Source: Bacteroidaceae bacterium (GTDB lineage Bacteria; Bacteroidota; Bacteroidia; Bacteroidales; Bacteroidaceae). From it: DNA of 39,957 bases. Below the pieces are notes generated by a model. That model saw only the letters and a program-made list of their open reading frames with translations, did not search any database and was not told the DNA's origin. The stretch lies in contig JAFZPZ010000070.1 in the NCBI GenBank assembly GCA_017552435.1, positions 1 through 39,957 on the forward strand. The letters run 5' to 3'. A program made the translations under genes and the position numbers. Positions 15,313 through 35,594 of this stretch are shown in pieces; within the stretch, counting starts at the first letter, position 1, and the number at the start of each line of letters is the position of its first letter.

Positions 15313-16437
15313 TTATTTCAGTTTCGAATTGATGAATTCTTTCATCTCTGGGTAGTGGCGCTCGATGCTGAGCAGCAGGTGCAGCTGGTTATTGGCGCGG
15401 ACGAAGTTGTGGTCGGGGTACTGGCACTTCCAGTACTTGTCGCCGCTAAGGTAGTCCCAGAGGAAACGGACGCATTGCATGTAGGGGAAGAGAGCTGTGG
15501 CGTAGGGCAGGTTCTCTATCTCGACGGGTAGCAGGAAGCTGCGGGCACTCTCCAGATAGCCCTCGGTGAAGGCCTTGAAGATGTCCATGCGGAACTCCAC
15601 CTTGTCCATATCCGGGCAGTCCTCTGCCACGCGGTTGGCTCCGGTGCGCAGGAAGTCGCCGTAGTCGGAGAAGATGAAGTTGGGCATCACGGTGTCGAGG
15701 TCGATGACGCAGAGCACGTTGTCCTGCTTGTCGAACATCATGTTGTTCACCTTCGTGTCGCAATGGCAGACGCGTTTGGGCAGTGTTCCCTCGCGTCCCA
15801 TCCGCTCGGCCTTGCACATCTCTTCGGCTCGCTTTTCTATCTCAGCGAGCATGTTCTGTACGCGCTCTTCTTTGACTCTTCCTGCAGGATCGCGTTTCAC
15901 GACCTCTCTCAACTGCTCCAGGCGGAACTCCATGTTGTGGAAGTCCTTGATGGTCTCGCCCAACTGCACGGGGATGTCGGCAAGCATAGCCTGGAAGTTG
16001 CCGAAGGCCAGACCTGCAGCGCGGCTGCTGTCGGGATCGACGGCCTGCTTGGTGATGGCATCGTCGATGAAGACCATCAGGCGCCAGTAGGACTCAGACC
16101 CCCCATCCCCCTTTTGGGGGAGTTCCTTTACGTAGAGTTTGCCGTCGGCCTTTGCGGGGATGAAGCGCAACACGCGGCGGTCGATGTCGGGTGTGCCCTG
16201 TGCGGCAAGTTTTGCCCGGATGTGAGAGGTGACGGCATCAATGTTGCGCATCACCATATCCACATCGGGGAAGACGTTGTGGTTGACGCGCTGCAGCACA
16301 TAGTCGGGCTTGTCCGGTTCGGCAGTCTTTACTTTGTAGGTGTCGTTGATGAGTCCCTCGCCCAGCGGCTTTATCTCGCTGACGGTCCCCTCGTAGGCAA
16401 AACGCCCAACGATGCTTGATAATAGTTCTTGGTTCAT
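15313..16437 (-). CDS. Aminoglycoside phosphotransferase-fold kinase, NahK-like
   Basis: Small-molecule kinase of the choline/aminoglycoside kinase fold. The closest functional group I recognise is the N-acetylhexosamine 1-kinase type found in Bacteroidetes and bifidobacteria, which makes sugar 1-phosphates in the cytoplasm. The 374 residues show a nucleotide loop (LGEGLINDTYKV, about 26-37), the catalytic loop VCHCDTKVNNMMFD with H, D and N, and the metal-binding CVIDLDTVMPN. The C-terminus is helical. A GC-rich palindromic repeat (16098-16125) lies inside the gene and codes in frame for about eight residues around QKGDGG. The gene is single, bounded by a terminator and by the island's left repeat. 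The substrate is inferred only. Confidence 0.75.
   Translation of the reverse strand: MNQELLSSIVGRFAYEGTVSEIKPLGEGLINDTYKVKTAEPDKPDYVLQRVNHNVFPDVDMVMRNIDAVTSHIRAKLAAQGTPDIDRRVLRFIPAKADGKLYVKELPQKGDGGSESYWRLMVFIDDAITKQAVDPDSSRAAGLAFGNFQAMLADIPVQLGETIKDFHNMEFRLEQLREVVKRDPAGRVKEERVQNMLAEIEKRAEEMCKAERMGREGTLPKRVCHCDTKVNNMMFDKQDNVLCVIDLDTVMPNFIFSDYGDFLRTGANRVAEDCPDMDKVEFRMDIFKAFTEGYLESARSFLLPVEIENLPYATALFPYMQCVRFLWDYLSGDKYWKCQYPDHNFVRANNQLHLLLSIERHYPEMKEFINSKLK
16098..16125. repeat. GC-rich palindromic mini-repeat inside the NahK-like gene
   Basis: The core CCCCCTTTTGGGGG (16107-16120) lies in a unit matching 25 of 29 bases of the unit at 37649-37678 inside queE. It is read through in frame without stops. 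Confidence 0.7.
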
Positions 16438-16481: not shown

Positions 16482-16551
16482 GTAGTTAATTGTTTTTATT
16501 TGCAAAGATACAAAAAAAAGTGAAAAGTGAAAAGTGAAAAAATTATTTGTA

Positions 16552-16608
16552 TTTTTGCTGAAACGTGCAAGAGAAAAGATGGAAAAATGGGTTCATATGG
16601 GGTATGTT
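16552..16608 (+). repeat. 57-bp inverted repeat, left copy (island boundary)
   Basis: Bases 16552-16608 are the exact reverse complement of 27569-27625, 57 of 57. The match stops abruptly on both sides. Starting at its outer end it reads TTTTTGCTGAAACGTGCAAG. It contains an ATG (16579) that opens a short frame, MEKWVHMGYV, kept in both copies. It lies just outside the accessory genes and just beyond a gene-free AAAAGTG simple repeat (16517-16541). Confidence 0.9.
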
Positions 16609-16862
16609 ATTAGGTAAATCTCCGCTGCTGCCGCCTAAATGCCTTGAAAAGAGCAAAGTGAAAAAAGTGTATTTCTGTTGTAACTCGCTGAAAACTAGAG
16701 TCTCTCCGAATCGGATAGGCTCCTTTACTAGGTTTTGACCCTGAATTTCATGTCTTCGAGAGCCCGAATGCCCGCGCAAGACCGCTAACTTTTCGATGAC
16801 CGCCTGATTGGGTTGGGCTAAATTTTGGTTACAGCTACGGAATTTGCACTATTGTAAATTAT
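16609..16862. other. Gene-free left shoulder of the island
   Basis: No recognisable gene. An open frame on the minus strand (16543-16779) matches nothing I know. The stretch holds a small palindrome TCCGAATCGGA and, at 16794-16835, one copy of an imperfect direct repeat. Confidence 0.4.
16794..16835 (+). repeat. Imperfect direct repeat, left copy
   Basis: Shares CGATGACCGCCTGATT exactly with the right copy near 26769. Similar sequence continues (GGGTTGGGCTA and TTTTGGTTAC against GGGGTAGGGTTA and TTTTGGTAAC). It lies between the left 57-bp repeat and the first island gene. Confidence 0.5.
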
Positions 16863-17069
16863 TCAGTTGTCTTTTCCCGACAACAATTCCTCTGCCAATG
16901 CTTTAACCTTTTGCTCAGTTATAGGCTCCTTAGACGAATACAACTCTTGCGTCAGCGGACTATTCATCACCAGCCCTGTTGCGTCTCGTGGTTCGAGATC
17001 ATATTCCGATACCAGATAGGCTGCAAGGTCAGCCATCAAATCCTCGAACTTCAAATATCTCTCTTCCAT
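16863..17069 (-). CDS. Small protein of a DUF3990/DUF3791-type cluster
   Basis: A 68-residue acidic, helix-rich protein; no family recognised with certainty. Its middle (LAAYLVSEYDLEPRDATGLV) resembles the short DUF3791 proteins that usually accompany DUF3990 genes, but the match is weak. It starts six bases after the DUF3990 stop and so belongs to the same transcript as 17076-17567 and 17564-18031. It may be an accessory antitoxin or a second DUF3791-like partner. It is the last gene before the gene-free shoulder of the island. Confidence 0.6.
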   Translation of the reverse strand: MEERYLKFEDLMADLAAYLVSEYDLEPRDATGLVMNSPLTQELYSSKEPITEQKVKALAEELLSGKDN

Positions 17070-17075
17070 ATTCTG

Positions 17076-17567
17076 TCAATCTTTAACCAATTCTTTCAAT
17101 GCCCTTGCCGTACAAAAGCAATATTGTATGTAAGTGCTGCCAAACTGCGAGACATGTTCGGCAAAGTCAAGCAAAGCCTCTGTATCCAGATAATGTTTGC
17201 CGTATTTCTGCTTGTGACGTTCAATTTCCTTATCTACGAAAGCATCAGCCACAGGGCCAATTACTATATCATATTCGTGTGTAAAAGTCTCGTCCGTACG
17301 ATTCAAGATGATAAACTTGGACCACCCAGCACTGAAGCCCTTGAATATTTTTATCTTCAGCCTATGCTCTTGCGCCTTGGCAGGATAATAGAGGAAAGGT
17401 GAGACCACGATTTCTCCACCATCTCTGCTTGCCCGACGCTTACCCATCATATACGCACGCTGCCATTGAGGAGTCAGGTAGAATCCACGACCAAAGTCGT
17501 TCTTCGACTGGCATTTTACCAGATCAGGTTGCACGATTTCAACGTTGCTCCCATGCAAGAGTCTCAT
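17076..17567 (-). CDS. DUF3990 protein, ADP-ribosyltransferase-like putative toxin
   Basis: A 163-residue protein with the DUF3990 pattern. The N-terminus reads MRLLHGSNVEI, then FGRGFYLTPQWQRAY. This mirrors the NAD-binding layout of PARP/diphtheria-type ADP-ribosyltransferases, in which an HG motif is followed by a G-(I/F)-Y block and an aromatic further on. A later EYDIVIGPVAD supplies acidic residues that could fill the third catalytic position. The start overlaps the HTH-DUF3791 stop by four bases (ATGA), so translation is coupled to the upstream regulator. By position and fold I infer a toxin that modifies a target with NAD. No activity has been shown from sequence, and an immobile NAD-binding role is possible. 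Confidence 0.75.
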   Translation of the reverse strand: MRLLHGSNVEIVQPDLVKCQSKNDFGRGFYLTPQWQRAYMMGKRRASRDGGEIVVSPFLYYPAKAQEHRLKIKIFKGFSAGWSKFIILNRTDETFTHEYDIVIGPVADAFVDKEIERHKQKYGKHYLDTEALLDFAEHVSQFGSTYIQYCFCTARALKELVKD

Positions 17568-18031
17568 ACAGCTTTCCTGAATTTTTCACGATTCATATTG
17601 CAGACTTTGTCAAGGTCGCTGAGCAAGGTCTCGCGAGGCAACGTCTGTTCATAGGCGTAGTTATCTTCCATGAACTGGATGCCCTTATATATCAGAAGAT
17701 ACTTGTAGGCATCGGCAAAAGCCATCTTCTTTCTATGGGCATACCAAGCAACCCCGATAGTCACAAAGCGTACACATTCCACCTTCTTCTCGTCCGGCTC
17801 CTTCATGCCCATTACCTGAATGCTGATTTTCTCGCCCATAGCATCCATCAGCAGCGACGCATCCTCGAATGAAATATGCGTCAACCCCTTTTCTATCTTG
17901 CTGATGCTGCTCTTTGGCAGACCAACACGCCTGCCCAGTTCCTCCTGAGTAATCCTTTTGGCTTTTCTCACCCTTTGGATAGCAGAACCCAGCATACTGA
18001 CGTTACCTTCGTTTTCAAATTTTCTCTTCAT
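17564..18031 (-). CDS. XRE-HTH regulator fused to a DUF3791-like domain, putative antitoxin
   Basis: A 155-residue protein. Residues about 13-70 form a Cro/C1-type helix-turn-helix (IQRVRKAKRITQEELGRRV, then GLPKSSISKIEKG). The remainder (VRFVTIGVAWYAHRKKMAFA onward) resembles DUF3791, which in other genomes is a separate short gene beside DUF3990. The fusion therefore joins a DNA-binding repressor to the toxin-neutralising partner. I start at the ATG at 18031 (MKRKFENEGN); the frame extends only seven codons further. A TAATTTTG box lies at 18057-18050, about 20 bases before the start, so the protein could repress its own operon. It overlaps the downstream DUF3990 gene by four bases. Confidence 0.75.
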   Translation of the reverse strand: MKRKFENEGNVSMLGSAIQRVRKAKRITQEELGRRVGLPKSSISKIEKGLTHISFEDASLLMDAMGEKISIQVMGMKEPDEKKVECVRFVTIGVAWYAHRKKMAFADAYKYLLIYKGIQFMEDNYAYEQTLPRETLLSDLDKVCNMNREKFRKAV

Positions 18032-18049
18032 ATTTGCATTCCTCCGCTG

Positions 18050-18057
18050 CAAAATTA
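18050..18057 (-). promoter_or_regulatory. -7 box of the DUF3791-DUF3990 operon
   Basis: TAATTTTG on the minus strand, 18 bases before the start of the HTH-DUF3791 gene. Confidence 0.45.
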
Positions 18058-18163
18058 CAAGAAATTTCCGAAACGGGAAACTTTTCCGGTAATATTTTCA
18101 GGAAACGTATCGACTTTGCTACTCTTTGTTTGCAAATCCTGTCCTTCTATCTTCCTTCATCCA

Positions 18164-18421
18164 TCAAACAGACTCCGCGACAAACAATGACTCCATCTCG
18201 TAGGTAGGTTCATATGAATAGCTGGAGACTCTGATAATATCTTCTCCAAGAGCAGCAGAAATCTTACAAATCATCGCCATCGTCAGGTTATGAGTACCAG
18301 ACAGCCAACGACTTACCTCCGTTTCCGTCTTTCCCATTAGACGAGCAAACTCTTTCTGCGACATCCCTTTTGCTTCGAGAATACTGTAGATGCGGTTAGC
18401 TATCGTAACCGACAGTTCCAT
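18164..18421 (-). CDS. XRE-family transcriptional regulator (HigA/HipB type), 5' end frameshifted
   Basis: An 85-residue Cro/C1-type DNA-binding protein. The helix-turn-helix covers about residues 18-50 (GMSQKEFARLMGKTETEVSR, WLSGTHNLTMAMI), the pattern of antitoxins of Bacteroidetes toxin-antitoxin pairs. The intact frame begins at ATG 18421. In homologues of this type I would expect about 20 more residues. Just such a stretch (MKTNRIMDEIRSTISP) is encoded upstream from ATG 18483 in another frame, behind a strong GGAAAGGAGG ribosome site. One base seems missing near 18424-18428. It may be a damaged gene, a sequencing error, or a translated short leader. No toxin gene is next to it; the preceding gene is res. 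Confidence 0.7.
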   Translation of the reverse strand: MELSVTIANRIYSILEAKGMSQKEFARLMGKTETEVSRWLSGTHNLTMAMICKISAALGEDIIRVSSYSYEPTYEMESLFVAESV

Positions 18422-18483
18422 CTGAAGCTCATTCCTGGTGAGATTGTACTGCGAATCTCATCCATGATTCTATTTGTTTTCAT
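18400..18483 (-). other. Frameshifted 5' segment of the XRE gene
   Basis: An ATG at 18483 with GGAAAGGAGG upstream opens a 27-codon frame. Its first 20 residues look like the missing N-terminus of the XRE protein, after which it continues out of frame to TAG at 18400. The ribosome site is unusually good for this genome, which suggests 18483 was the real start. Confidence 0.5.
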
Positions 18484-18556
18484 GTATGCCTCCTTTCCTT
18501 ATTCATCGTCTATTGTAAACGACAATTCACCCAGGAGTCCTGTCCCTTGGCATATT

Positions 18557-21451
18557 CTATAATTCTGCAAACAAATCACCCACTAGGAAAGACAACGAAA
18601 CTTTTAGGCGGTCACAAATGTCTTTGAGGCTTGCGCCGTTGTGGGCAAGACTATAGAAGTTATCTTCACTCAAAAGAATATATTCCCAAGTCCTGTTCAT
18701 CCTTTCTTCTGGCTTCAGGCTGTTTATCTTCCGCGTCCATTCAACGGTTGCCGTTTGCTTCTGTCGAACATTTTTGTCGAAGACCTTGTCGTTGCCTTTC
18801 GTCTCAATGAGATAGACCTTGCCTGCTGTCGTGACGATGAAGTCGGGATGATAGGTCGCCATGAGTCCGTCGGCACGGATGTAGTAGATGACGGCAAAGG
18901 GATGTTGGTTCTCGCTTATCTTCAGGTATCGTTCCACTTCGCCGTCTTTTTCGAGGAACTCTATGAAAGCTTTCTCCAAGCCTCCGCCATGAGTGGGATA
19001 TGCTTGTCGCTCGTAGATGGTTTTCGTTGTCTCCATCGAATAGGCCTCTCGCATCTTGATTTCCTCTACTGATGAGAACTTGGTATGCAAGACCTCTGCA
19101 TCCGTTGTCAGAATCCTTTCTTGCAAACGGAAGATGGCGCGTGCCATAACTTCGATGATGTGCTTTGTGACAACGGCTTCCCTCGACAGCAGAATCTTCC
19201 AGTCGCTTCCATTGAAGGGATTAAAGGGCTGCCCGAATAGTCTTGTCCTAATGTATTGATCAACTACAGCAATCGTCTTTGCCTCGTTGATTTGCAAGTT
19301 AGGCACAGGCATTTCCCGATGTGCCGAGACGCGGTCGAAGCGTTTTGTAATCGTGTCCAACAGCTTTTGCAGGTACTCGTTGTAGCAGGTGGCAGAGAAC
19401 AGATTGGCTGTCACTTTGTATCGTCCGAATTGTGTCTTCGAGAGGGCTTCTTGCGAGATAAAGGTCTCGCCGTCTTGTGCCAGGAACTGCCGGAGTCTTT
19501 CCAACGGGAAGGCGGTGAAGGGTTCAAGGCCATTGATGTCTATCTCTGCATCCTCCAGTTCCTCTTCCGCATCCTTTATTATCATGGGCCATTCGAGGTC
19601 GAACTGCTCATAGCCTTCCCTCAAGCCGACCCGGAGAATGTCGCCTGTAGAGCCGCCTTCGCCTACCTCGCCAGTTTCCTCAACAGCCAAGCCGCCTGCA
19701 AGCAATTCGTCATAGAAACGGATGAAGGCAGGATGCTCTATGATGCTGAGCATATCGAGGTAGGTCTTTGGCTGGCTGCGCAACTGGATGACACGCTTGC
19801 GGTCTTCCTCCTTGATGCTTTGATATTCCTGTTCGCGCCACATCAACCGAAGTCCGCGCCCCACAATCTGCTCCAACAGAATTGGTGCTTCCGACGAGCG
19901 CAGAGGAACGATGACGCAGATGTTGTTGACATCGAAACCTTCGCGAAGCATCAGCACAGAGATAATGACCTTTGGCCGTTTGTGCTTGTCGATGTCGAAG
20001 AGTTTCTTCTTCGTCTCTTTCCATTCATCCTCAGAGACTTCGCCCTTTGCATTACTGTCGATGACAACAACATCTTCCTCTGCCAAGCCCTCGTCCATCA
20101 TAAGTTTGGCGACGAATGGCGTTACAGAAGTGTCTTCGCAAACGACCAGCATCTTTGGATTCTTCCTTTCATCCACAGCAGTAAACTCCGCTTCCAGCTT
20201 CCTCAGCTTTGCCAATCCTGCACGCAGCATGAGCCTTTGCCCGTCACTAAGGTTGCAAACCTTATTGCGGTCATCGCGTTCTGCCTTGTAATCCAAGTCT
20301 TTCAGTTCTGTCAACTCCTGTCTTCTGTCGAGCAAGAGCGTCTTGACCAATCCCTTTCGCATAGCCGTTGCCAAATCGAAGTCAACGACGATATGCGGGA
20401 AGTAGGACTTCTGGGCATTCCTTCCAGAGCCTCGCATATCGTAAGGCGTTGCCGAGAAATCAACTTGGAAGAAGCGGTCGCCTTTCTTCTCCGAGATGAC
20501 ATTCAAGCCCTTCTGCCATTCTACCTCTTCTGTCTCGCCATTTCGCTTTAGCTCGTGAATATGGTGGGCTTCGTCGTTGATGACCATAATGTCGTCCAGC
20601 CCTGCGAGGTATTCCAATTCAGAACCTTTGAGATATCTTCGGTCAAGCATCCCAAGGTCATTCCCTGCGGCCTTGCCAGGACGGATAGGTAGCAGCTTGT
20701 TGATGATGCCAGAGACACTTTCGTCTTCTTGTGTTTCCTCTTCCATCTGATTCTCGAACAAATGCCAGTTGGTCAGGGCAATAAGCCCGTCACCTGTTGT
20801 CTTGCGTCCGATGCCTTCTTCTTTCGTGACGACATTGTTCTGTATGAATGAAAAGACCTCTTGCCGGAAGTGAACAGGGATAAAGACCTCTTTGTTCAGA
20901 TAAAAGTCGTTGGTCTCGGTGTTGCGGCCTTCTCTGTCACGCTCTAATCTTCCGCAGAAGGCATCTAAGAGGCGGTCATAGACGATAAGACCAGGAGCAA
21001 CTATCAGGAAGTTCTTGGTGAAGCGCTTGTCGTCGAGGCTATGTCTGGCATTCAGCATCTGCCAAATCAGCAAAGCATGCATCACCCAAGTCTTGCCTGT
21101 GCCTGTTGCCATCTTCACGGCATATTTGGGCATCTGATATTTCTGCTGCCCCATCGTGCCGAGGTCGAGCATCGGCATCAGGTCGGGCGTTATCTGCTGA
21201 TAGTATTCGAGGACGTTCTTTGCGCCCAGCACCTCGTGCAGATAGATGATGTTGAGGATAGCCTGTTTCTGCCCTGCGTGGAAGTTGCGGCTCCGTAGCG
21301 AGCAGTATTCCTCGGAGAACCAGAACTTCAGCAGCTCTCCTGTAGTGGGCGTGACCTTTTCCTGCATCTCGCCACTCTCCCAAGCCTCATTCACCGTTTC
21401 GCTCAGCCGCTTTGCCAACTCCAGCGAAGCACTAATATTCGACGCTATCAT
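18557..21451 (-). CDS. res: Type III restriction enzyme, Res subunit
   Basis: ATP-dependent restriction subunit that acts with Mod to cut DNA carrying unmodified sites. The 964 residues carry SF2 helicase motifs: Walker A VKMATGTGKTWVM (about 112-124), DEAH box VINDEAHHIHE (about 290-300), SVLMLREGFDV, and motif VI QIVGRGLRLMW (about 527-537). The C-terminal nuclease is of the PD-(D/E)xK type: HPDFIV near 866 and YLIETKGND near 880-888. All motifs are intact and the length is usual for Res. It starts nine bases after the mod stop, in the same operon. Its codons resemble the rest of the island. The long plus-strand frame at 19256-20551 is an antisense shadow. Confidence 0.93.
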   Translation of the reverse strand: MIASNISASLELAKRLSETVNEAWESGEMQEKVTPTTGELLKFWFSEEYCSLRSRNFHAGQKQAILNIIYLHEVLGAKNVLEYYQQITPDLMPMLDLGTMGQQKYQMPKYAVKMATGTGKTWVMHALLIWQMLNARHSLDDKRFTKNFLIVAPGLIVYDRLLDAFCGRLERDREGRNTETNDFYLNKEVFIPVHFRQEVFSFIQNNVVTKEEGIGRKTTGDGLIALTNWHLFENQMEEETQEDESVSGIINKLLPIRPGKAAGNDLGMLDRRYLKGSELEYLAGLDDIMVINDEAHHIHELKRNGETEEVEWQKGLNVISEKKGDRFFQVDFSATPYDMRGSGRNAQKSYFPHIVVDFDLATAMRKGLVKTLLLDRRQELTELKDLDYKAERDDRNKVCNLSDGQRLMLRAGLAKLRKLEAEFTAVDERKNPKMLVVCEDTSVTPFVAKLMMDEGLAEEDVVVIDSNAKGEVSEDEWKETKKKLFDIDKHKRPKVIISVLMLREGFDVNNICVIVPLRSSEAPILLEQIVGRGLRLMWREQEYQSIKEEDRKRVIQLRSQPKTYLDMLSIIEHPAFIRFYDELLAGGLAVEETGEVGEGGSTGDILRVGLREGYEQFDLEWPMIIKDAEEELEDAEIDINGLEPFTAFPLERLRQFLAQDGETFISQEALSKTQFGRYKVTANLFSATCYNEYLQKLLDTITKRFDRVSAHREMPVPNLQINEAKTIAVVDQYIRTRLFGQPFNPFNGSDWKILLSREAVVTKHIIEVMARAIFRLQERILTTDAEVLHTKFSSVEEIKMREAYSMETTKTIYERQAYPTHGGGLEKAFIEFLEKDGEVERYLKISENQHPFAVIYYIRADGLMATYHPDFIVTTAGKVYLIETKGNDKVFDKNVRQKQTATVEWTRKINSLKPEERMNRTWEYILLSEDNFYSLAHNGASLKDICDRLKVSLSFLVGDLFAEL

Positions 21452-21460
21452 AACTATGAA

Positions 21461-23416
21461 CTATGAATTATGAACTATTTCAATCACTTGACTCTCGAAG
21501 CCAAACACATCCACTGCTTTGATGCAAACTTGGCGCGTTTCCTTGTGCGGAACGCGGAGGCGAGTCTTATAGACGCAATGCAGCGGGTCGTTGTCGTTGC
21601 CTGTGTTCTCCCGATAGTCCTGCCAAGTGGAACGGAAGGTCGTGCCGTCGTAGTCGGGGTCAATGCTCCAGTACTCAATCAGGGATAGCGGGTCGTCGTT
21701 CATCACCTTCTGGAGCGAAGCCTTGTCCTTTTCGTCGAGCGGGATGTTGTCGGGCGAGAGAAGCACATAGTTCTCCAACTCTATGTCGAGCTCGTCGCTC
21801 TCGCCTTGCCTTGTTGTGACGACAGGCTTTGCCACAAGGTATTGCAAAGAGGAGAAGCGGACGGAGCGGTCGTCGATGAGCTTCCTGTAGCCCTTCTTTG
21901 CTAGCTTGTCGAGGAGGTCTGGCGGGATGACGAGCACTTCGACCTTGCTGTCCTGATACTTCTGGATGGCAGCCGAGATGTCGAAGGCGAAGTTCCAGCC
22001 AAGCACCACAACTCTCTCCCAGTCGCCGCCGAGCAACGAAGCCTTTGCCTCTACTGCCTTGCGGATGGTGGCGGCAGTCGTGAGGCGGTTGGGGGAATCG
22101 GCCATCACGAGTGTACGCGTACCTTTAATATATCCGAAGCTGCGGTCGTTTGTCTGTTCGGGGGTGAAGGGCAGAGCGCCATACAATCCCAAGACAACTT
22201 GGCTCAAGTCACCTACATGCTTGTAGCGTTTGTTGTTGCGGAAGGCTTCTTTCTGATAGTCGCCGATGCTCTGATAAAGGAACGGCTTCACCTCCTGGTC
22301 GATGAATCGCTTGCGCATCACCAACGAAGCAGGTTTCCCAATGTCGCAGGTTATCCATCGCCTGCCCAAACGCTCCGCCACAGCAGCCGTCGTGCCGCTG
22401 CCCCCGAAGAAGTCGCAGACGAGGTCGCCTTCATTGGAAGAGGCTTTGATTATGCGTTCAAGAAGGGCTTCGGGCTTTTGGGTTGCATAGCCTACGTTTT
22501 CCTTTGCTGAATTGTTTAACTTGTCTAAATTCCATACATCATCAATAACAACTCCTTCTCTCATTGCTTCATCCAAATAGCGTCTAACTCTATTGCCATT
22601 ACCCGCATCAGACATAACATATCTTCTTCCGTTTTCATCAGTATAGGGCTTTTGTTTCCTCCTTTTTATGTATTCTTCTTCTGATTCCCATTGTTCAAAA
22701 TAAGAGTTAAAATGGCATCCTTCATCATCAAAAGAATAAAAAAGGATTACATCATGTCTTTTCTCAAATGAATTCTTTAGTTTTTTGTTCCATCCAGAGT
22801 ATTGCCATACTATTTCATTCCTAAACTTCTCTTTACCAAAGATATCATCAAGAATAACTTTCATATAATGTCCTATATGCCAATCTATATGTACAAACAG
22901 ACTCCCTGAGCTTGAAAGTAGTTCTCTTATCAGCACCAATCGAGGATATATCATCTTCAGATACGAGATAGTTCCTTCTTCCCATGTGTCTGCGTAAGCA
23001 AACTGCTCGATGACTGTCGGCTTCTGCTGAATGTCTGTTCCTGGCAAGGATATCTTTGTGCGATAATCTGCCTTCGAGTCAAATGGTGGGTCGATATAGA
23101 TAAGGTCAACCTTTCCACGAAGCGAGGGCAAGCCTGTTTGGGCATCGCCCGCAAGGAGTGCCTGCATTGCCAAGAGGTTGTCGCCATAGATGAGGCGGTT
23201 CATCCATCCTGCGTTGCCTCCTGCCATATTGAAGGCATTGGGTATTTGTGGCGTGAAGCCTCGGAACAGCCCACTTGTGTCCTTACTCGGCAGCACCAGT
23301 TCGTTTGTCTGTAACCCGATTTGTGTGCCGCTACTGAGCCGCTCTAATATCTGTGCGGCTTCCCGTCTGCCCTCGCTCACAATGCGGGGCAGCTCTTCAA
23401 TCAATGATTTAGCCAT
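21461..23416 (-). CDS. mod: Type III DNA methyltransferase, Mod subunit (N6-adenine)
   Basis: Recognises the target sequence and methylates adenine; needed by Res. The 651 residues have the beta-class order: motif [17 protein letters not shown] first (about 102-116), then the target-recognition region, then the S-adenosylmethionine motif [14 protein letters not shown] (about 332-345). The extended C-terminus is typical of type III Mod. I start at ATG 23416 ([10 protein letters not shown]); the frame is open to 23476, but that part overlaps a large hairpin. No simple-sequence repeat for phase variation is seen inside the gene. Its last residues (EIVHNS) are encoded by an AT-rich simple repeat. 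A leader of about 300 bases with stems and a duplicated promoter lies upstream. Confidence 0.93.
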
Positions 23417-23460
23417 ACTTGCATTATATTTCTTATAATGCGTCGAGCCAATAAACAAAA

Positions 23461-23605
23461 GTTCCTGCAAATACATAAAACGTGGACGTTTTCACCGTCC
23501 AACGTTCAAGGTACTTGCAGGAAACCTATACTACGAAACAGGAAAACGCCCACTATCCAGTGAGCGTAACCATTATAATCGTAGTATGTTCTTTCACCTG
23601 CAAGT
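23461..23605 (-). promoter_or_regulatory. Structured leader of mod with alternative stems
   Basis: Two strong inverted structures adjoin. The first pairs 23462-23470 with 23515-23523 (perfect 9 bp) and continues inward to GGACG/CGTCC around a 7-base loop. The second pairs 23528-23536 with 23579-23587 (ATACTACGA/TCGTAGTAT) and encloses ACGCCCACT-ATCC-AGTGAGCGT. The segment 23513-23521 (ACTTGCAGG) can instead pair with 23597-23605 (CCTGCAAGT). The outer stems thus exclude one another, as in attenuators or switches. It could also be a DNA hairpin site for a recombinase. Confidence 0.55.
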
Positions 23606-23655
23606 TTCTGAACGCTTTGTATAATAGCCAACGCTTGTTATTTACCGATAAGATC

Positions 23656-23872
23656 ATACCGCCTCCTTGCGCTCAGGGACTTGATTTCATGCCAAAAGCA
23701 TGCGTCTTTTGTGACGAAAACAGCGATACTTGCCACAAAGATACAAAAAAATGAAGAATGAAGAGTGAAGAATGAAGATTTTTCTTTCAATTTCGAGGCA
23801 GAAGCACAAAATAATCGAAAAAAACAATCTTGTAGGCTCCGCATTGTAGGCTCCGCATTGGCCTCACAAAAA
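23656..23872 (-). repeat. 217-bp direct repeat, copy 1, with promoter
   Basis: Aligns without gaps to 24963-25179 with four mismatches. It contains, on the minus strand, a TATCTTTG -7 box (23743-23736), a GAAGAATGAAGAGTGAAG simple repeat, and a tandem 14-base duplication (GTAGGCTCCGCATT, near 23831-23858). It lies between the rhuM terminator and the mod leader, so it may supply the mod promoter. Confidence 0.9.
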
Positions 23873-23875
23873 AAA

Positions 23876-23898
23876 CAGCACCCATTTTGTGGATGCTG
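23876..23898 (-). terminator. Intrinsic terminator of the RhuM-family gene
   Basis: On the minus strand, CAGCATCCA/TGGGTGCTG (one mismatch) with a 5-base loop, followed by at least eight T. Its sequence resembles the terminator at 25181-25206. Confidence 0.8.
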
Positions 23899-23945
23899 GC
23901 TTGTGACATTAGTCTATTCAGTACTATTTTAACAGCTTTCTGCTT

Positions 23946-24950
23946 TCATTGGTCTTCTTCCTTGTTTTCCAACAGGGCTTTGACGGCTTTGTCGAAGTCG
24001 CTCTCTAACAATCGCATCTCCCGCTCACGATAGATTTCAAACTCATGTTCCGCCTTTTTTATGGCTTCTTCGTGCGAGATAGTGCCAGAACCTTCTAGAA
24101 TGTTTTTTCTCAGGCGTAGTATCTGGTCATCGAGTGCCGCCACCCAGTCGGCCATTGTCATTGGGTTCTGTTCCAAGGCCTGGAACTCTGCATAATCGAG
24201 GAACTGCGATGTCAATAGGTTCAGGCGCTGTAGTTCCAACTCCGTCAAGTAGTTCTTGGCTATCTTCACATCGTCGCGAGTCACGTAGTTGCCTTTGAAA
24301 CTGGTCATGCCCACGAAAGGCTTCTCGTTATCAACACGCTCATAAATCAGCTCTGCTGCTGTATGCTCGTGAACGGCATAGTGCATCTTGTTCTGCACGG
24401 TAGCAAAGAAGAGCTGTGTTGTTTTCGAACGTGGGTCGTAATCGGTAGAGGTTGCATAGATGTCCGTCACCTGCTGATAAAAGTTGCGCTCGCTGCTGCG
24501 AATGTCGCGAATGCGCTGCAGTAGTTCCCTGAAGTAGCGGTTCCCACCTTGTTTCAAGCGCTCATCATCCATTGCAAAGCCCTTTTGGATATATTCGTGC
24601 AGCAACCGGGTTGCCCAGCGACGAAAACGCACAGCTATAGGCGATTGCACGCGATAACCAAGGGCGATGATGACATCGAGATTGTAGTGCTGTACAGGAT
24701 GAGTCTGCGTTTTACCTTCTATAGCGCCATGTGGAGTGGTTGTTCGGAATTTCCGAACTACCACTTCTTTGTCCAATTCCTTGTCTGCAAAGATGTTTGT
24801 CAGATGCTCACTGATATTCGATTTACTCGACTGGTATATTTCTACCAATTGTGCTTGTGTCAGCCACACATCCTCGTCGGCAAACAGCGTATTCACACTC
24901 AGTTTACCTTCCTCATCCTTATAGAGTATCAGTTTATTTTCTTTGTCCAT
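23946..24950 (-). CDS. RhuM family protein
   Basis: A 334-residue protein of the RhuM family, named from a Salmonella pathogenicity island gene; biochemical role unknown. The N-terminal half holds the family core: VWLTQAQLVEIYQSSKSNIS, HYNLDVIIALGYRV, then FRRWATRLLHEYIQKGF. The middle (VHEHTAAELIYERVDNEKPF) carries conserved polar residues, and the C-terminus is helical and charged. RhuM genes are frequently found within or beside restriction-modification loci, as here just upstream of mod-res. The start is ATG 24950; the longer frame to 25151 runs through the 217-bp repeat and is rejected. The gene and one repeat copy form a 1307-bp unit that looks like an inserted cassette. Confidence 0.85.
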   Translation of the reverse strand: MDKENKLILYKDEEGKLSVNTLFADEDVWLTQAQLVEIYQSSKSNISEHLTNIFADKELDKEVVVRKFRTTTPHGAIEGKTQTHPVQHYNLDVIIALGYRVQSPIAVRFRRWATRLLHEYIQKGFAMDDERLKQGGNRYFRELLQRIRDIRSSERNFYQQVTDIYATSTDYDPRSKTTQLFFATVQNKMHYAVHEHTAAELIYERVDNEKPFVGMTSFKGNYVTRDDVKIAKNYLTELELQRLNLLTSQFLDYAEFQALEQNPMTMADWVAALDDQILRLRKNILEGSGTISHEEAIKKAEHEFEIYREREMRLLESDFDKAVKALLENKEEDQ

Positions 24951-24962
24951 TATCCTATGTTT

Positions 24963-25179
24963 ATACCGCCTCCCTGCGCTCAGGGACTTGATTTCATGCT
25001 GAAAGCATGCGTCTTTTGTGACGAAAACAGCGATACTTGCCACAAAGATACAAAAAAATGAAGAATGAAGAGTGAAGAATGAAGAATTTTCTTTCAATTT
25101 CGAGGCAGAAGCACAAAATAATCGAAAAAAACAATCTTGTAGGCTCCGCATTGTAGGCTCCGCATTGGCCTCACAAAAA
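24963..25179 (-). repeat. 217-bp direct repeat, copy 2, with promoter
   Basis: Copy of 23656-23872, 213 of 217 bases the same. Its TATCTTTG box (25050-25043) lies about 93 bases before the rhuM start and probably drives that gene. Confidence 0.9.
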
Positions 25180-25180
25180 T

Positions 25181-25206
25181 AGCCAGCACCCTGATGGATG
25201 CTGGCT
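25181..25206 (-). terminator. Intrinsic terminator of the ATPase gene
   Basis: An 11-bp stem (AGCCAGCATCC against GGGTGCTGGCT, one mismatch) with a 4-base loop, then ATTTTTG on the minus strand, 20 bases after the ATPase stop. Confidence 0.8.
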
Positions 25207-25226
25207 AAATGATAATAAAATTTTCT

Positions 25227-26615
25227 TCACATATCCTCTATCGAGAGGCCGCGAAGCGAGAGGGTGTACTCGCCAAAGCTCTTTGAGGGCAGCACATTGA
25301 CCTTCTCCTGCAAATCTTTAAGGCTGATTTTTCGGGGATTGCGCTTGATTTCGGCCGCCACTCCCGTGTGGTCGAACTCGTTGATGGCTATCATGTCTAT
25401 CTCGTTGGCTTTCGCCTTCCTCTGTCGCGACTCGGGATAGTCAAAACCAGCTTTGCCTCTCCTCTCGCTGCTCCATCGGTTTTCGCCCTTGCGGTCCCAC
25501 CAGTTGCCCACCAGCGTGTATTGTCCCGTCTCCATCGCCTGCGTCTGGAAATACTGCTCCAACGTCCTACCGGTAAACTGCTCATAGTGCTGGCTCATAT
25601 TCTGACGCAGCAGCGCGAGCTGTCCCCGTTCGACGAGCGACTGGTACGGCCACACAAAGCGGAACCAGAACCGTAGGAACTGGTCGGAAATCTCGTAGGA
25701 GGTCACCTTGCTGTTGGGCTTAGCTAGCAGCGGCTTCAATCGGCTCACCATCAGGTAGTTCTTCTCAAGGTTCTGCAGATAGACACCCATGTCCTTCTGC
25801 ATGGCCCCGTCGATATCCGAGCGTGTGGTCAACCCACCGGCGATCAGCTGCAGGATGGAGAAGTAGGTAGCGCTCTCGTCGCTGAACTCCTGATTCATGA
25901 TGTCGCGCCCCTCGGAGAGGAAATAGGAATCCTGACGGCACACATAGTTGAGCATCTTCTCCTTCGTGTAGCAGCCCGCATCCATCAGTAATTCAACATA
26001 TTTGGCCACACCGCCGGTAATCATGTAGAGGCAAAGCAAATCCTCATTTTTATAATCCGGACAGTGGTCGCGGAATATCTGCTTGAGAACGCTGATGGCG
26101 AAGGGTTTCAGCGTCAGTTTCGAGGTGGGGCGGCCATAGAGCGGCTCGTTTTCGTTCTCGAAGATGCGCTTCATCAGCGACTGGATGCTGCCCGAGGTGA
26201 TGAGGTAGAGGTGCGACTCGCGGTGGTAGCGGTCCCACAGGTCCTGTATCTCGCTGAAGATGGCGGGATTTACCTTGTAGAGCGTCTGGAACTCGTCGAA
26301 GATGATGATGAAATGGCGGTTCAGCGACTCCTTCATGATAACCTCGAACAGGTCGCGGAAGTGGCTGATGGTGCCATAGATGTGGATGCCCAGCTGCTCC
26401 TCCAGCGTCTGTTGGAATTTTTGGCAGAGTACCGCCTCGCTGTCCTTCGAGACGAAGAGGTAGGCATAGTCGTAATTCTTCAATGCCGTCGTGATTAGCG
26501 TAGTTTTGCCCACACGCTTGCGGCCCATCAGCACCGTAAATACTGCGCTCTTCCTCGACTGCAATTCATTCTCTTTCAGAATGTTTATCTCGCTCTCCCT
26601 ATCGTAGAATTTCAT
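25227..26615 (-). CDS. AAA ATPase with DUF234-like nuclease domain
   Basis: A 462-residue ATP-binding protein of the archaeal-type ATPase_2 family. Walker A is VLMGRKRVGKTTLI (about 28-41), Walker B is HFIIIFDEFQTLY (about 118-130), and a sensor-like LYLITSGS follows. A winged-helix region comes next. The last 100 residues match DUF234, a PD-(D/E)xK-type domain: NEIDMIAINEFD followed by GVAAEIKRN. Function is unknown for most members; they are common in accessory and defence regions of Bacteroidetes. The start is ATG 26615, with a TAAATTTG box at 26668-26661. It is the first gene of the island on the minus strand and has its own terminator. Motifs look intact. Confidence 0.85.
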   Translation of the reverse strand: MKFYDRESEINILKENELQSRKSAVFTVLMGRKRVGKTTLITTALKNYDYAYLFVSKDSEAVLCQKFQQTLEEQLGIHIYGTISHFRDLFEVIMKESLNRHFIIIFDEFQTLYKVNPAIFSEIQDLWDRYHRESHLYLITSGSIQSLMKRIFENENEPLYGRPTSKLTLKPFAISVLKQIFRDHCPDYKNEDLLCLYMITGGVAKYVELLMDAGCYTKEKMLNYVCRQDSYFLSEGRDIMNQEFSDESATYFSILQLIAGGLTTRSDIDGAMQKDMGVYLQNLEKNYLMVSRLKPLLAKPNSKVTSYEISDQFLRFWFRFVWPYQSLVERGQLALLRQNMSQHYEQFTGRTLEQYFQTQAMETGQYTLVGNWWDRKGENRWSSERRGKAGFDYPESRQRKAKANEIDMIAINEFDHTGVAAEIKRNPRKISLKDLQEKVNVLPSKSFGEYTLSLRGLSIEDM

Positions 26616-26660
26616 AATGTTAATTGCTATTTATATTAATTACCATTTATATTTGTGGTG

Positions 26661-26668
26661 CAAATTTA
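26661..26668 (-). promoter_or_regulatory. -7 box of the ATPase gene
   Basis: TAAATTTG on the minus strand, 45 bases before the start. Confidence 0.45.
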
Positions 26669-26768
26669 CGAATAAAAGAAACATTAAGCAAGGATTTTGC
26701 GGAAATATTTGCAGGGTTCAGAACCTTTGGCATATATAACCGACAAAAACGGCCACCGGAATTCAATC

Positions 26769-26815
26769 CGATGACCGCCTGATTTTTGGGGTAGGGTTAC
26801 TGTTTTTGGTAACGT
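26769..26815 (+). repeat. Imperfect direct repeat, right copy
   Basis: Partner of 16794-16835 (16 identical bases, then similar sequence). It overlaps the right arm of an imperfect hairpin, CGGCCACCGG/CCGATGACCG (26752-26779), followed by T-rich sequence. Confidence 0.5.
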
Positions 26816-27079
26816 TACTATGTTACCTTGCTTATTTCTTTTTGGTCAGCTGATTTACCAAACAGCAGCGCAAATGGGTTATAAAAGTTACAGTACGCCA
26901 ACCAAGATATCTGCCCTTCTGTAAGAATGATGGAATGTCTTTTGCCAGAGCATTCTTGATGGCAAATAAATTAAGAATGAAGAGTGAAGAATGAAAAATT
27001 ATAGTAAAAATCAATGAAATTCTTTTAAATCTGGTTTTGCTTCTACTAAAAATGACGTAACCATCAGATATTAAGCATT

Positions 27080-27114
27080 ATTCGTTCATTTTTCCCTCTA
27101 CTTTTCCTTCTACT
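27080..27114 (+). repeat. 35-bp inverted repeat, left arm
   Basis: Pairs with 27399-27433, 34 of 35 bases complementary; about 284 bases lie between the arms. It starts ATTCGTTCATTTTTCC and continues as a pyrimidine-rich run of CTACTTTTCCTT type. Confidence 0.85.
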
Positions 27115-27216
27115 AAAGTTCTACTAACCTTCAACTTTGCCTCTACTATTTATTTACTCATCATCTGTTTTATTTTAATAGGCGCTGTTAACAAAAGGAG
27201 TAGGGGCCGGCTTAAT

Positions 27217-27277
27217 ATTCCCACCTTGGGAATAAAATATTCCCAGCCTGGGAACAAAACATTCCCATGTTGGGAAT
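27217..27277. repeat. Three tandem palindromes with a 22-bp period
   Basis: Three 17-base units of the form ATTCCCAnnnTGGGAAT begin at 27217, 27239 and 27261 (the middle one ends AAC). They are separated by five A/T-rich bases. The period is about two helical turns, as expected for protein-bound iterons or operators. Confidence 0.85.
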
Positions 27278-27279
27278 AA

Positions 27280-27378
27280 ATGATAAGCTACGGGCAAATA
27301 TCTCATAAAAAGATTGGCTTTGAAATCAGCGAGGTAGTATCAAAGCTGAAAGACTATGGAAAATTAGTAGAGCTTTAG
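27280..27378 (+). CDS. Possible 32-residue peptide between the inverted repeat arms
   Basis: An ATG right after the third palindrome opens MISYGQISHKKIGFEISEVV and ends KLVEL at TAG 27378. The composition looks protein-like (alternating charged and hydrophobic residues). No homologue is recognised. After two stops the same frame reopens at ATG 27382 for about 41 codons (MESRGKVEGKVDGKM). It may be a relic of a longer gene or chance. It lies just downstream of possible operators. Confidence 0.25.
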   Translation: MISYGQISHKKIGFEISEVVSKLKDYGKLVEL

Positions 27379-27398
27379 TAGATGGAAAGTAGAGGGAA

Positions 27399-27433
27399 AG
27401 TAGAAGGAAAAGTAGATGGAAAAATGAACGAAT
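27399..27433 (-). repeat. 35-bp inverted repeat, right arm
   Basis: Partner of 27080-27114. It is part of a purine-rich series of AGTAGANGGAAA units (27377-27425). Confidence 0.85.
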
Positions 27434-27568
27434 GGCACTTACTATCAGAATGTTATAGCATATTTAGTAGAGGCAGAACTAAATTTTCATTAATTGAAGT
27501 CTCTTAAGTAACTGGTTTATTAACAAAATCAAAAAACTATGGCAATCAAAATCAATGCAAGGGAGACG

Positions 27569-27625
27569 AACATACCCCATATGAACCCATTTTTCCATCT
27601 TTTCTCTTGCACGTTTCAGCAAAAA
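27569..27625 (-). repeat. 57-bp inverted repeat, right copy (island boundary)
   Basis: Exact reverse complement of 16552-16608. Outside it, 54 bases separate it from the next gene. Its outer end GCAAAAA pairs with TTTTTGC at 27632-27638 to form a small hairpin that overlaps the promoter of that gene. Confidence 0.9.
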
Positions 27626-27629
27626 GCCG

Positions 27630-27637
27630 TATTTTTG
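27630..27637 (+). promoter_or_regulatory. -7 box of the MG2-type gene
   Basis: TATTTTTG, 42 bases before ATG 27679. A weak -33 (CTTG at 27606-27609) lies 20 bases upstream, inside the 57-bp repeat. The ten bases GTATTTTTGC at 27629-27638 also occur at the left repeat's outer edge (16549-16558). Confidence 0.5.
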
Positions 27638-27678
27638 CAGCCAACATGTAAACTCATCAATCAAACGGATAACAAAAC

Positions 27679-30568
27679 ATGAAAAAGTCACGCCTCAACT
27701 TTCTCGTTTCATTTTTCATTTTTCGTTACCTCCAGTGCTTTTGCACAGCAGGCTCCCACTACGCTGGAAGGATGGGCCGAGCGTCTGGAAAAGTTCGGTA
27801 AGACTATCCCGCAGGAGCAGGTTTTCATCCATACCGACAATACTTGCTATTTCCTGGGCGATACCCTCTACTACAAGGCCTATGTGCGTCGTAGCGACAC
27901 GGGTGCCCCGAGCCGCCTGAGCGGTGTCCTCTATGCCGAACTGCTGAATCAGGACGGATACCTCGTGCAACGTCAGCAGCTGGAACTGCAAAACGGCCAG
28001 GTGCACGGCTCTTTTGTGCTGCAGGATACACTCTACGGCGGCTACTACGAACTGAGGGCCTATACGCGCTGGCAACTCAACTGGGGCATCACCGAGCATC
28101 CACACAACAAGGTCTCGGAACAGTGGTTCTATAACAAGCGTATGGCGCAGGAGTATTATCGCGACTACGAGAAGCTTTACAGCCGCGTCTTTCCTGTTTT
28201 CGACAAGCCCAAGGAACCCGGCGATTTCTTCCATGAGATGACGCTCCGGCCTCTTCGCCGCCAGTCGAAAGTTGACGAGACTTCGCCCAAGCCGAAAATG
28301 CAGCTCTTCCCCGAGGGCGGCAATCTGGTGGCAGGTGTCCCCAATCGTGTTGCCTTCGAGGTGACAAGCAACGAGGGACTGCATCTGGAGGGAAAGGTGA
28401 CTGTGACCGAAGGCGCAAGTACTGTGGTAGCAGAGGCAGACGTTGAGCAGCGAGGCCGCGGCTCCTTCACCTTCACACCCCAGAGCGGCAAAAGCTACAG
28501 CGTCACCTATACGGGCAAGAAAGGAACCGTGAAGGAACACCTGGCAAGTCCCGAAAAGGATGGCTGTGCGGTACAGGTGGTGAATGAGGGAATAGGGAAT
28601 AGAAGAGTAGAGATTAGGGCTGCTGGCACTGCTGCCAGCGAAGAACTTGGCATGACGGTAATGCACGACGGCGTGATGCTCGATTTCCAGACGATTCCTG
28701 CCGGATCTTCTGCCGACATTACCCTCGACGAGGCCAAACTCCGGACAGGTGTCTGCCAAGTCACTATATATAATAATGTGGGCCGCATCTACGCCGACCG
28801 CCTCTTCTTCTGCCGCAAGAATGATTTCTCGCCAACCACTCTCCGTTTCAGCGGTCTCAGCGAAAAGCCGGCAGAGCCCTTCGCTCCTGTCAGTCTTGCT
28901 GTGGAAGGCGGAAAACCAGGCGCCACAGTCAGCGTCTCGGTATGCGACGCTACCCACTCGGAGTATCTCTACGACAATGGCAACATCCTGACCGAGATGC
29001 TTCTGGCCAGTCAGATACGTGGTTTCGTGGAGAATCCCGGCTATTTCTTCGAGAAGGACGACGAGGAGCACAATCGCGCCCTCGACCTCTTGCTGATGAT
29101 ACAGGGCTGGCGGCGCTATGACTGGCACACAATGACCGAACCGGGTGCTTTCGTGCTGAATCACAAGCCCGAGCAGACACCGCTCTTTGTGGGCGAAGTC
29201 AACAAGTATATGGCCATCGAGCAGGAATCGATGTTTGCCGACAACTTTAGCTCCCTGGATGCGGGAAGCAATGCTACAGACGCTGTGAGCCTGACCGGAG
29301 AGAATGAGGTGGCGTCTAACATGGAAAATGACACGAAGGAGGCTACCGATGGGGGCGCAGTGACAGCAGCCCGTGAAAATACCGAGACCACCGGACGCGA
29401 TATCCCCACACAAAACGACCAGCTCACTCGTCGTATGCAGAACGAAGGAACCATGAAGCGCGAGGTTCTGGTTCACGCACTTTTCACCAAACCCGGAGCA
29501 GGGCAAGTTGTCGATGGCGAGATGATGACCGAGAAGCATGCCTTCTCCATCCCATCGCCGCGCTTCTACGAGGGCAGTATCTTCTATCTGTCGGCCAGCG
29601 ACAGCACAAAATGGAAGAAGGACCAGCCCCACATCTGGGACATCCCGAGTACCGATCGCAACGACAAGCTCAACTACCCCGAGTTCTATGTCCGTCTGCG
29701 TCCATTCTTCCCGCGTTTCGTCAAGCCCTATGACTGGTATCAGTGCCATTTGGCAGAGGCGCCGAAGGGCTCCGTCATCGCTCAGGATTGGCTGATGGAC
29801 GGCTCGCGTATGCTCGATGAGGTGACCGTCGGTGTCAAGCGCGCCCGTCTGCGTAAGTTCGACCCCACGAAGCCCGCCTACGTCATTGATGCCTACGAGG
29901 CCTTCAACGAGGCTTGCGATGTAGGATTCTGCCCAGGAGTCTTCTATGGTAGCAACCGTTTTGCTCGCGACATCTCACGCACCTACATCGGCGACATGAA
30001 CCTGTCGCGCGACTATGAACTGGTGCTCCGTATGGATGGCAGGAGCCAGTCCAACATGTCCGTCAATACACAGAACCGCACGGCCGTCGGTGGTGTTGCT
30101 CCCGCTCCAATGCCTGTCGAAACCTTCAACATGTCATCTTCCGAGAAGGAGAAGTACAACCTGCTGAAAAACCTCGGCAAGGTCTATATCTACACCGACT
30201 ACAGCCCTCGCAGGGAAGGTAACTCGCTCTATGATGGCGAGGACATTCCTAATGTGGAGGTTGATATTCACCTCATTGACAAACTCGATTCGCATCGCGC
30301 CACTTCCCGAGACCGCCGCTATGTCTTGCCTGGTTACTCGGCACCGGAGGATTTCTATCAGCCCGACTACAGCAACAAGCCTTTGCCAAATGTGAAGGAC
30401 TATCGCAGGACGCTCTACTGGAATCCTGACCTGAAGCTCGATGACAGCGGCAAGGCTGAGTTCAGTTTCTACGGCAATGGCAAGCAGACGCACCTGACCG
30501 TTACGGCCGAAGGCCTTGCAAACGACGGCACCCTGCTCACGGGAAAGAGCATGCCGGAAGATAGGTGA
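27679..30568 (+). CDS. Large exported MG2-domain protein, signal peptide frameshifted
   Basis: Bacteroidetes surface or periplasmic protein of about 960 residues; no function established. The mature N-terminus (FIHTDNTCYFLGDTLYYKAY) is an alpha-2-macroglobulin MG2-like domain. Further beta domains follow, then a C-terminal region with LDEVTVGVKRARLRKFD and a closing beta domain (FSFYGNGKQTHLTVTAEGL). ATG 27679 begins a good signal peptide (MKKSRLNFLVSFFIF), but the frame then stops at about 27800. The frame of the remaining protein picks up with VTSSAFAQQAP, one base out of register, after two T5 tracts (27715-27724). The first in-frame ATG after that is 27884, inside the MG2 domain. An extra T, a real mutation or slippage-based switching would explain this. 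The 677-codon antisense frame is a shadow. Confidence 0.75.
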
Positions 30569-35570: not shown

Positions 35571-35594
35571 AAGATTATAGTTACCCGAATTACC

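Follow-up and report, generated by a model that had tools for sequence, protein, structure and literature searches.

Gene content of the island and reality of its inverted repeat

The 39,957-nucleotide stretch of Bacteroidaceae bacterium DNA analysed here (hereafter, the window) comes from a draft assembly (3.50 Mb, 129 contigs, 87.9% complete) and holds an 11-kb island of predicted defence genes between two 57-bp arms in inverted orientation. Pfam assigns the main genes of the island to DUF3990, HTH-DUF3791, a second HTH, ResIII, N6_N4_Mtase, RhuM and ATPase_2/DUF234, in agreement with the gene content that an earlier note on this DNA (the original prediction) had read from the sequence. Pfam and PADLOC matches together place several predicted defence modules next to one another, as in a defence island; the PADLOC labels (PDC-M13, PDC-M64C, PDC-S05, PDC-S27) denote candidate families. 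The G+C content is 46.9% inside the island, 52.1% to its left and 54.2% to its right. A Pfam scan of 12 island open reading frames (ORFs; 7 main and 5 small) detects no integrase or transposase family, the short open stretches of 26640-27568 lying outside the scan, and within that scope the earlier statement that the island contains neither enzyme holds.

A repeat search of the window shows that the arms are 57 nt long, 100% complementary and 10,960 nt apart, and a script-based comparison shows that their identity breaks off immediately on each side (outer GTA vs. GGC; inner ATTAGG vs. CGTCTC), so that the exact match and abrupt ends originally reported are borne out by both. As a chance control, we searched 20 second-order Markov simulations of the window for exact inverted repeats with copies >200 bp apart; the longest per simulation was 13-16 nt, vs. 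57 nt observed. We conclude that the 57-bp inverted repeat is real and lies far beyond chance.

The island probably occupies a promoter -7 box that is intact in relatives

If the island is an insertion, relatives are expected to have an empty site. The left flank (the kinase gene) is matched in 137 and the right flank in 131 of 139 genomes of the genus, own genome included in both counts, and 20 orthologous loci were fetched as a chosen subset with both flanks close together on one contig. In 17 of the 20 loci, the flanking-gene matches are 159-246 bp apart; that is, the empty sites that the original prediction had suggested looking for are present. The other three loci carry other inserts, with 380 bp (G124), 1071 bp (G102) and 974 bp (G080) between the flanks (G and L numbers are our handles for genomes and fetched loci). 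The genomes of all 20 loci lack the 57-bp arms in a search allowing ≤3 mismatches. Because genomes with an empty site have no arms, the arms came with the island.

Two -7 boxes stand in the intergenic space of the relatives: one in reverse orientation that belongs to the kinase gene, and a forward one (TAnnTTTG) that belongs to the right-hand gene and is present in 20 of 20 loci. Where no large insert intervenes (18 loci), reverse and forward boxes are 40-71 bp apart, the distance being exactly 52 bp in 11 of these 18. The window has a forward box at 16550, 47 bp from the kinase reverse box, and a second forward box at 27630, beyond the right arm and 50 bp before ATG 27680, and the ten bases GTATTTTTGC are common to both outer junctions. 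This duplication of the promoter box at the outer junctions goes beyond the original prediction. Among the relatives, another forward box precedes the usual one by 8 bp in G093; G084, G024 and G124 have extra boxes as well, all of them outside the intergenic space. A model of the empty site with one copy of the core scores better than a two-copy model in 11 of 20 loci, ties in 8 and is worse in G124; compared with a no-copy model it is better in 19 of 20 loci and worse in G039, many of the score differences among the models being small.

Since the flanks are joined in relatives and the core is present at each junction of the window, we conclude that the island is very probably an insertion into the -7 box of the right-hand gene, with the arms as its ends (Table 1). 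The original prediction had left open whether the arms are the ends of a non-autonomous element, sites of inversion or insertion targets. The empty sites without repeat and the core at each junction favour element ends; the idea of insertion targets finds no support, as the arms arrived together with the island, whose target is the promoter -7 box; inversion is weighed below.

Table 1. Features of the island, its junctions and its flanking genes (window coordinates)
Feature	Position	Strand	Basis or remark
Left flanking gene, APH/choline kinase-like	15313-16437	-	Pfam
-7 box of left flanking kinase gene	16503-16510	-	sequence reading
Six-base spacer TTTGTA, left counterpart of GCCGTA	16546-16551		sequence reading
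Left target core GTATTTTTGC	16549-16558	+	overlaps first 7 bases of left arm
Probable ancestral -7 box of right-hand gene, now orphaned	16550-16557	+	within left core
Left 57-bp arm, outer end TTTTTGC	16552-16608	+	repeat search and script
68-aa ORF of DUF3990 unit	16863-17069	-	close counterpart in G138
DUF3990 protein, PADLOC candidate PDC-M13B	17076-17567	-	Pfam, PADLOC
HTH-DUF3791 protein, PDC-M13A	17564-18052	-	Pfam, PADLOC
HTH protein, PDC-M64C-like	18164-18421	-	Pfam, PADLOC
Type III restriction subunit-like (ResIII)	18557-21451	-	Pfam, PADLOC
Type III methyltransferase-like, mod (N6_N4_Mtase)	21461-23476	-	Pfam, PADLOC
224-bp direct repeat, copy 1	23649-23872		flanks RhuM
RhuM family protein, PDC-S05	23946-25151	-	Pfam, PADLOC
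224-bp direct repeat, copy 2	24956-25179		97% identical; overlaps RhuM ORF start
ATPase_2/DUF234 protein, PDC-S27	25227-26615	-	Pfam, PADLOC
Noncoding stretch recurring in own genome	26640-27568		holds imperfect 134-bp inverted repeat 27018-27151 / 27362-27495
First ten codons (30 bases) of HU-type gene, truncated by right arm	27539-27568	+	name by eye
Right 57-bp arm, exact reverse complement of left arm	27569-27625	-	repeat search and script
TTG in right arm, -33-like element	27607-27609	+	20 bp before -7 box
Six-base spacer GCCGTA, between right arm and TTTTTGC	27626-27631	+	candidate crossover sequence
Right target core GTATTTTTGC	27629-27638	+	contains -7 box 27630-27637 of gene with ATG 27680
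Right flanking gene	27680-30568	+	no Pfam match for 27884-30568

Two of the other inserts (G102 and G080; L079, L080) place a small HEPN/nucleotidyltransferase pair, recognised by eye, in the same intergenic space. In the third (G124; L078), an additional stretch of ~150-200 bp that contains hairpin-like repeats is located on the downstream side of the -7 box at this locus.

The cargo is a mosaic of separately distributed modules

A search with 17000-26640 gives matches (E up to 1e-30) in 46 of 139 genus genomes, own included, and these matches come as separate pieces. The restriction module (~18565-23654) has sharp ends in G136, G037 and G027; the DUF3990 unit is matched in G138 and G030, the lone HTH gene in G086, the RhuM gene in G123 and the ATPase gene in G092. 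None of the genomes with cargo-module matches has the arms (≤3-mismatch search).

The noncoding DNA just inside the right arm recurs elsewhere in own genome, a second result beyond the original prediction: 26640-27568 is also found on contigs 5, 10, 21, 26, 67 and 71, among others, with 71-96% identity in the main alignments. At the inner edge of the right arm, a 52-bp exact match on contig 67 runs into a longer HU-type gene. Part of the island thus matches DNA of own genome, because both the noncoding stretch and the start of the HU-type gene recur there. The arrangement fits an assembly of modules through repeated intergenic sequences, which may have occurred before or after the arms were acquired. 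A continuation of the HU-type gene inside the left arm was considered and rejected, since 148 of 300 shuffles did equally well (4% when the first 40 bases are taken).

The contig 26 copy of the noncoding unit lies near genes that by eye are ORF6N- and DUF1016-like. In G138 (L227 626-1215 / 2833-3402), the DUF3990 unit is enclosed by an inverted repeat that is imperfect overall but exact over 27 bp, and this exact stretch bears an outward-facing -7-like box on each side.

Proposed mode of integration

As the best of several readings, we lean towards placement of the island by a tyrosine recombinase acting in trans. According to this hypothesis, the element ends would be the arms themselves (TTTTTGC...GCAAAAA), the island would lack a recombinase of its own, and a circular form of the island would be the intermediate. 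The circle junction, arm'-GCCGTA-arm, would recombine with AAATTATTTGTATTTTTGCAGCC, giving the observed junctions; the left spacer, TTTGTA, would derive from the target, and the right spacer, GCCGTA, would have been brought by the element. The recombinase supplied in trans would join circle and target despite scant homology between their crossover regions, as is described for Tn1549/Tn916 (PMC5871717). On this reading, the island might still be mobile.

Candidate sources of such an enzyme are present in own genome. PF00589 has four matches there outside the island, two of them on contig 123 beside a relaxase. The second contig 123 recombinase has arm-binding, SAM-like and catalytic domains, the make-up given for the IntCTnDOT subgroup (PMC8138268), and IntDOT-type integrase candidates occur only on contigs 123 and 127. 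The region of contig 123 concerned (L222 8608-20000) is itself likely to be an integrative mobilizable element (IME), with two tyrosine recombinases, a relaxase, a DUF5906 protein and a helicase/PLD-type protein.

Several results weigh against this interpretation. No arm-like sequence lies near the integrases in the 40,000 of 56,230 bases of contig 123, and all of contig 127, that were read; because these parts show none, no helper recombinase could be pinpointed. The enzyme class is something we infer, because microhomology-driven joining of a circle would leave identical junctions. A 57-6-57 palindrome in the circle would be awkward to replicate. The core GTATTTTTGC fits GTANNTTTGC, which we take to be the CTnDOT target consensus; this motif is, however, also common as a -7 box in the window, where it occurs 14 times, mostly in that role, and the hitting of one such motif is therefore weak evidence for a particular enzyme. 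The ends of Tn1549, as given in PMC5871717, are 11 bp long and imperfect, vs. the perfect 57 bp of the island. The mosaic cargo and the host-type noncoding DNA inside the right arm could reflect growth in place. Near the start of the right-hand gene (27673-27884), the ATG and the long reading frame are in different frames, which speaks against a kept promoter: the frame opened by ATG 27680 soon terminates, and no ATG is close to the long frame that encodes the downstream protein. Gene decay or a sequencing error may account for this frame break.

A further difficulty is that a mobile element should leave relatives, and the arm has none anywhere searched. A survey of all copies of the 57-mer, as suggested in the original prediction, finds the two arms as the sole sites in own assembly and 0 copies in the 138 other genus genomes (≤3 mismatches). 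Shorter parts of the arm give isolated matches: for a 24-mer, one 3-mismatch match in the genus, in G128; for a 19-mer, four additional 3-mismatch places in own genome; for a 25-mer, one 3-mismatch partial match (G382) in a 399-genome family sample, with one also for the reversed control; and for a 19-letter arm pattern with one N, 14 matches in public genomes of unlike taxa, G128 among them, against a rough chance expectation of ~7. No arm copy was accepted from public genomes, phages, plasmids or viral contigs. Two scans of viral contigs gave no match and another gave one, inside a phage coding sequence; plasmids gave no match, and phages gave 13 weak records, the best with E 0.04. A BLAST search with 16545-17080 gave weak arm-region matches (E 1e-4 to 5e-3) in 5 of 138 other genus genomes, intergenic by eye and not counted as copies. 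The whole island has no match in plasmids and phages in near mode; in distant mode, the end region 16545-17080 has none in plasmids, and the end region 26640-27640 has none in phages and one 63-bp match in plasmids, taken as chance. Because most arm scans tolerated few or zero mismatches, diverged ends of related elements could escape detection.

The core pattern GCAAAAA-N6-TTTTTGC is found at 41 sites in 36 of 139 genus genomes (reversed control, 7 genomes), and no element ends were seen at the 30 of the 41 sites that were read, the window's own site included. A scan of 177 fetched loci, each ≥3 kb, for exact inverted repeats of ≥18 nt that are >300 bp apart gives matches in 18 loci: nine are the window's own sequence, three the contig 26 noncoding unit and two a single G138 locus; those of L097, L113 and L170 were inspected and judged unrelated, and the remaining match, L124, is 18 nt long. 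A DNA hairpin within the arm was considered and set aside, nothing beyond shuffles being found. On contig 146 of G116, near 7051 (L182), a GCAAAAA-N6-TTTTTGC site continues TTTTTGCTGAAAC, like the outer end of the arm.

Alternative explanations

The strongest alternative, which we regard as unlikely, is a stepwise origin, in which a small palindromic insertion (arm-loop-arm, similar to a miniature inverted-repeat transposable element) would have hit the -7 box first and defence modules would later have accumulated inside it via recombination between repeated intergenic sequences. The match of 26640-27568 to host noncoding repeats is its main support; the modules are matched separately in the genus, the restriction module with sharp ends, the start of the HU-type gene is cut off at the right arm, and the DUF3990 unit of G138 likewise lies within an imperfect inverted repeat. 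However, neither a solo palindrome nor a further copy of the arm was found in own genome, the genus or the family sample. Improbable in our view, and more so than a stepwise origin, is a phase-variable locus in which a DNA invertase would use the arms as its sites and invert the 11-kb island. Bacteroidales are described as inverting promoters and larger segments, restriction loci included (PMC8748976; PMC12632263), and the island resembles such loci in having inverted repeats, here perfect ones, around DNA with restriction genes. Against inversion, the repeats of the island are absent from the genomes in which the site is empty, its scanned ORFs include no invertase, and its seven main genes all lie on the minus strand.

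The presence of GTATTTTTGC at each outer junction would also be compatible with a DDE transposon, or a composite, having 57-bp terminal repeats and a 10-bp target duplication, to which we assign a still smaller probability. Read as a target duplication, the core leaves an element whose left end begins TGAAACG and whose right end begins GGCTTTTTGCTGAAACG; these ends are asymmetrical, with a shift of ten bases against the duplicated core. The scanned ORFs contain no transposase, which a non-autonomous derivative could still lack, and no related copies were found. Least probable of all, and very improbable in itself, is an assembly artefact or strain chimera with one misjoined junction. The draft state of the assembly, with its 129 contigs, the location of several repeat copies of own genome at contig ends and a repeat length (57 bp) near common assembly word lengths are all points in its favour; against it, relatives have intact the very site whose two halves form the outer flanks here, each junction with the core. 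A misjoin within the repeat might invert the island, yet it would not give rise to a second junction. That the island is present is better established than which way round it lies.

Promoter layout at the right junction

Bacteroides promoters are described as having a -33 element, TTTG, and a -7 element, TANNTTTG (PMC9330008; PMC12632263). At the right junction of the window, the right arm has a TTG at the spacing of a -33-like element from the kept -7 box (Table 1), and none of the 18 relatives without a large insert has a TTG 19-21 bp before the box (0 of 18). The two relatives with a different insert, G102 and G080, have a TTG 19 bp before the right-hand -7 box; the pattern thus comprises three cases, of which G102 and G080 may share one event. 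From the sequence, the TTG supplied by the arm and the kept -7 box would let the promoter that was hit retain a Bacteroides-type layout, and possibly its activity.

As a speculative and improbable generalisation, we raise that the island represents a class of islands that have no recombinase and whose attachment sites are long and perfectly palindromic. Such islands would enter promoter -7 boxes and use their own end to restore the promoter (TTG from the arm, -7 box from the shared core). If this were true, transcription of the gene that is hit could continue, with the island relying on recombinases of helper elements. In these bacteria, a single run of ten bases could serve both as the target core of a recombinase and as a promoter -7 box.

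Comparison with known systems

The island resembles Tn916/Tn1549-type elements in its inverted ends, its AT-rich target and what may be a short variable spacer at each junction. Tn1549 and Tn916 are described as having variable 5-6 bp crossover regions between inverted ends, and CTnDOT as having two conserved bases (PMC5871717); the island has TTTTTGC/GCAAAAA ends with putative spacers TTTGTA and GCCGTA, which would fit a Tn916-like arrangement but are read from one insertion only. Unlike a Tn916-like element, the island has no integrase, relaxase or transfer family in the ORFs scanned, and carries cargo only.

Compared with CTnDOT/NBU-type elements, integrases with similar domains occur elsewhere in own genome, with none in the island ORFs scanned. 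To our knowledge, long inverted ends are not a trait of CTnDOT. Dependence of cargo on other elements is described for trans-mobilised genomic islands and IMEs (PMC5704250); those described there encode an integrase, whereas the scanned ORFs of the island include none. With defence islands, the island shares a type III restriction-modification system, a toxin-antitoxin-like unit and PADLOC candidates side by side; what sets it apart is that a single perfect inverted repeat, located where a promoter box is duplicated, forms its two limits. Defence modules pass from one bacterium to another, and the carriers of small recombinase-less islands are often unknown; with its ends, empty site and core at the junctions known, this island offers primers and a model with which to look for the enzyme that moves it.

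Other features of the locus

The HTH protein encoded at 18164-18421 is a candidate of toxin-antitoxin type that has no recognised partner in the scanned neighbours and is possibly a remnant. Part of the 224-bp repeat sequence that flanks the RhuM gene is also present on contigs 26 and 67. Outside the island, at 34359-36896, two adjacent paralogous GFO/IDH/MocA oxidoreductase genes probably arose by tandem duplication.

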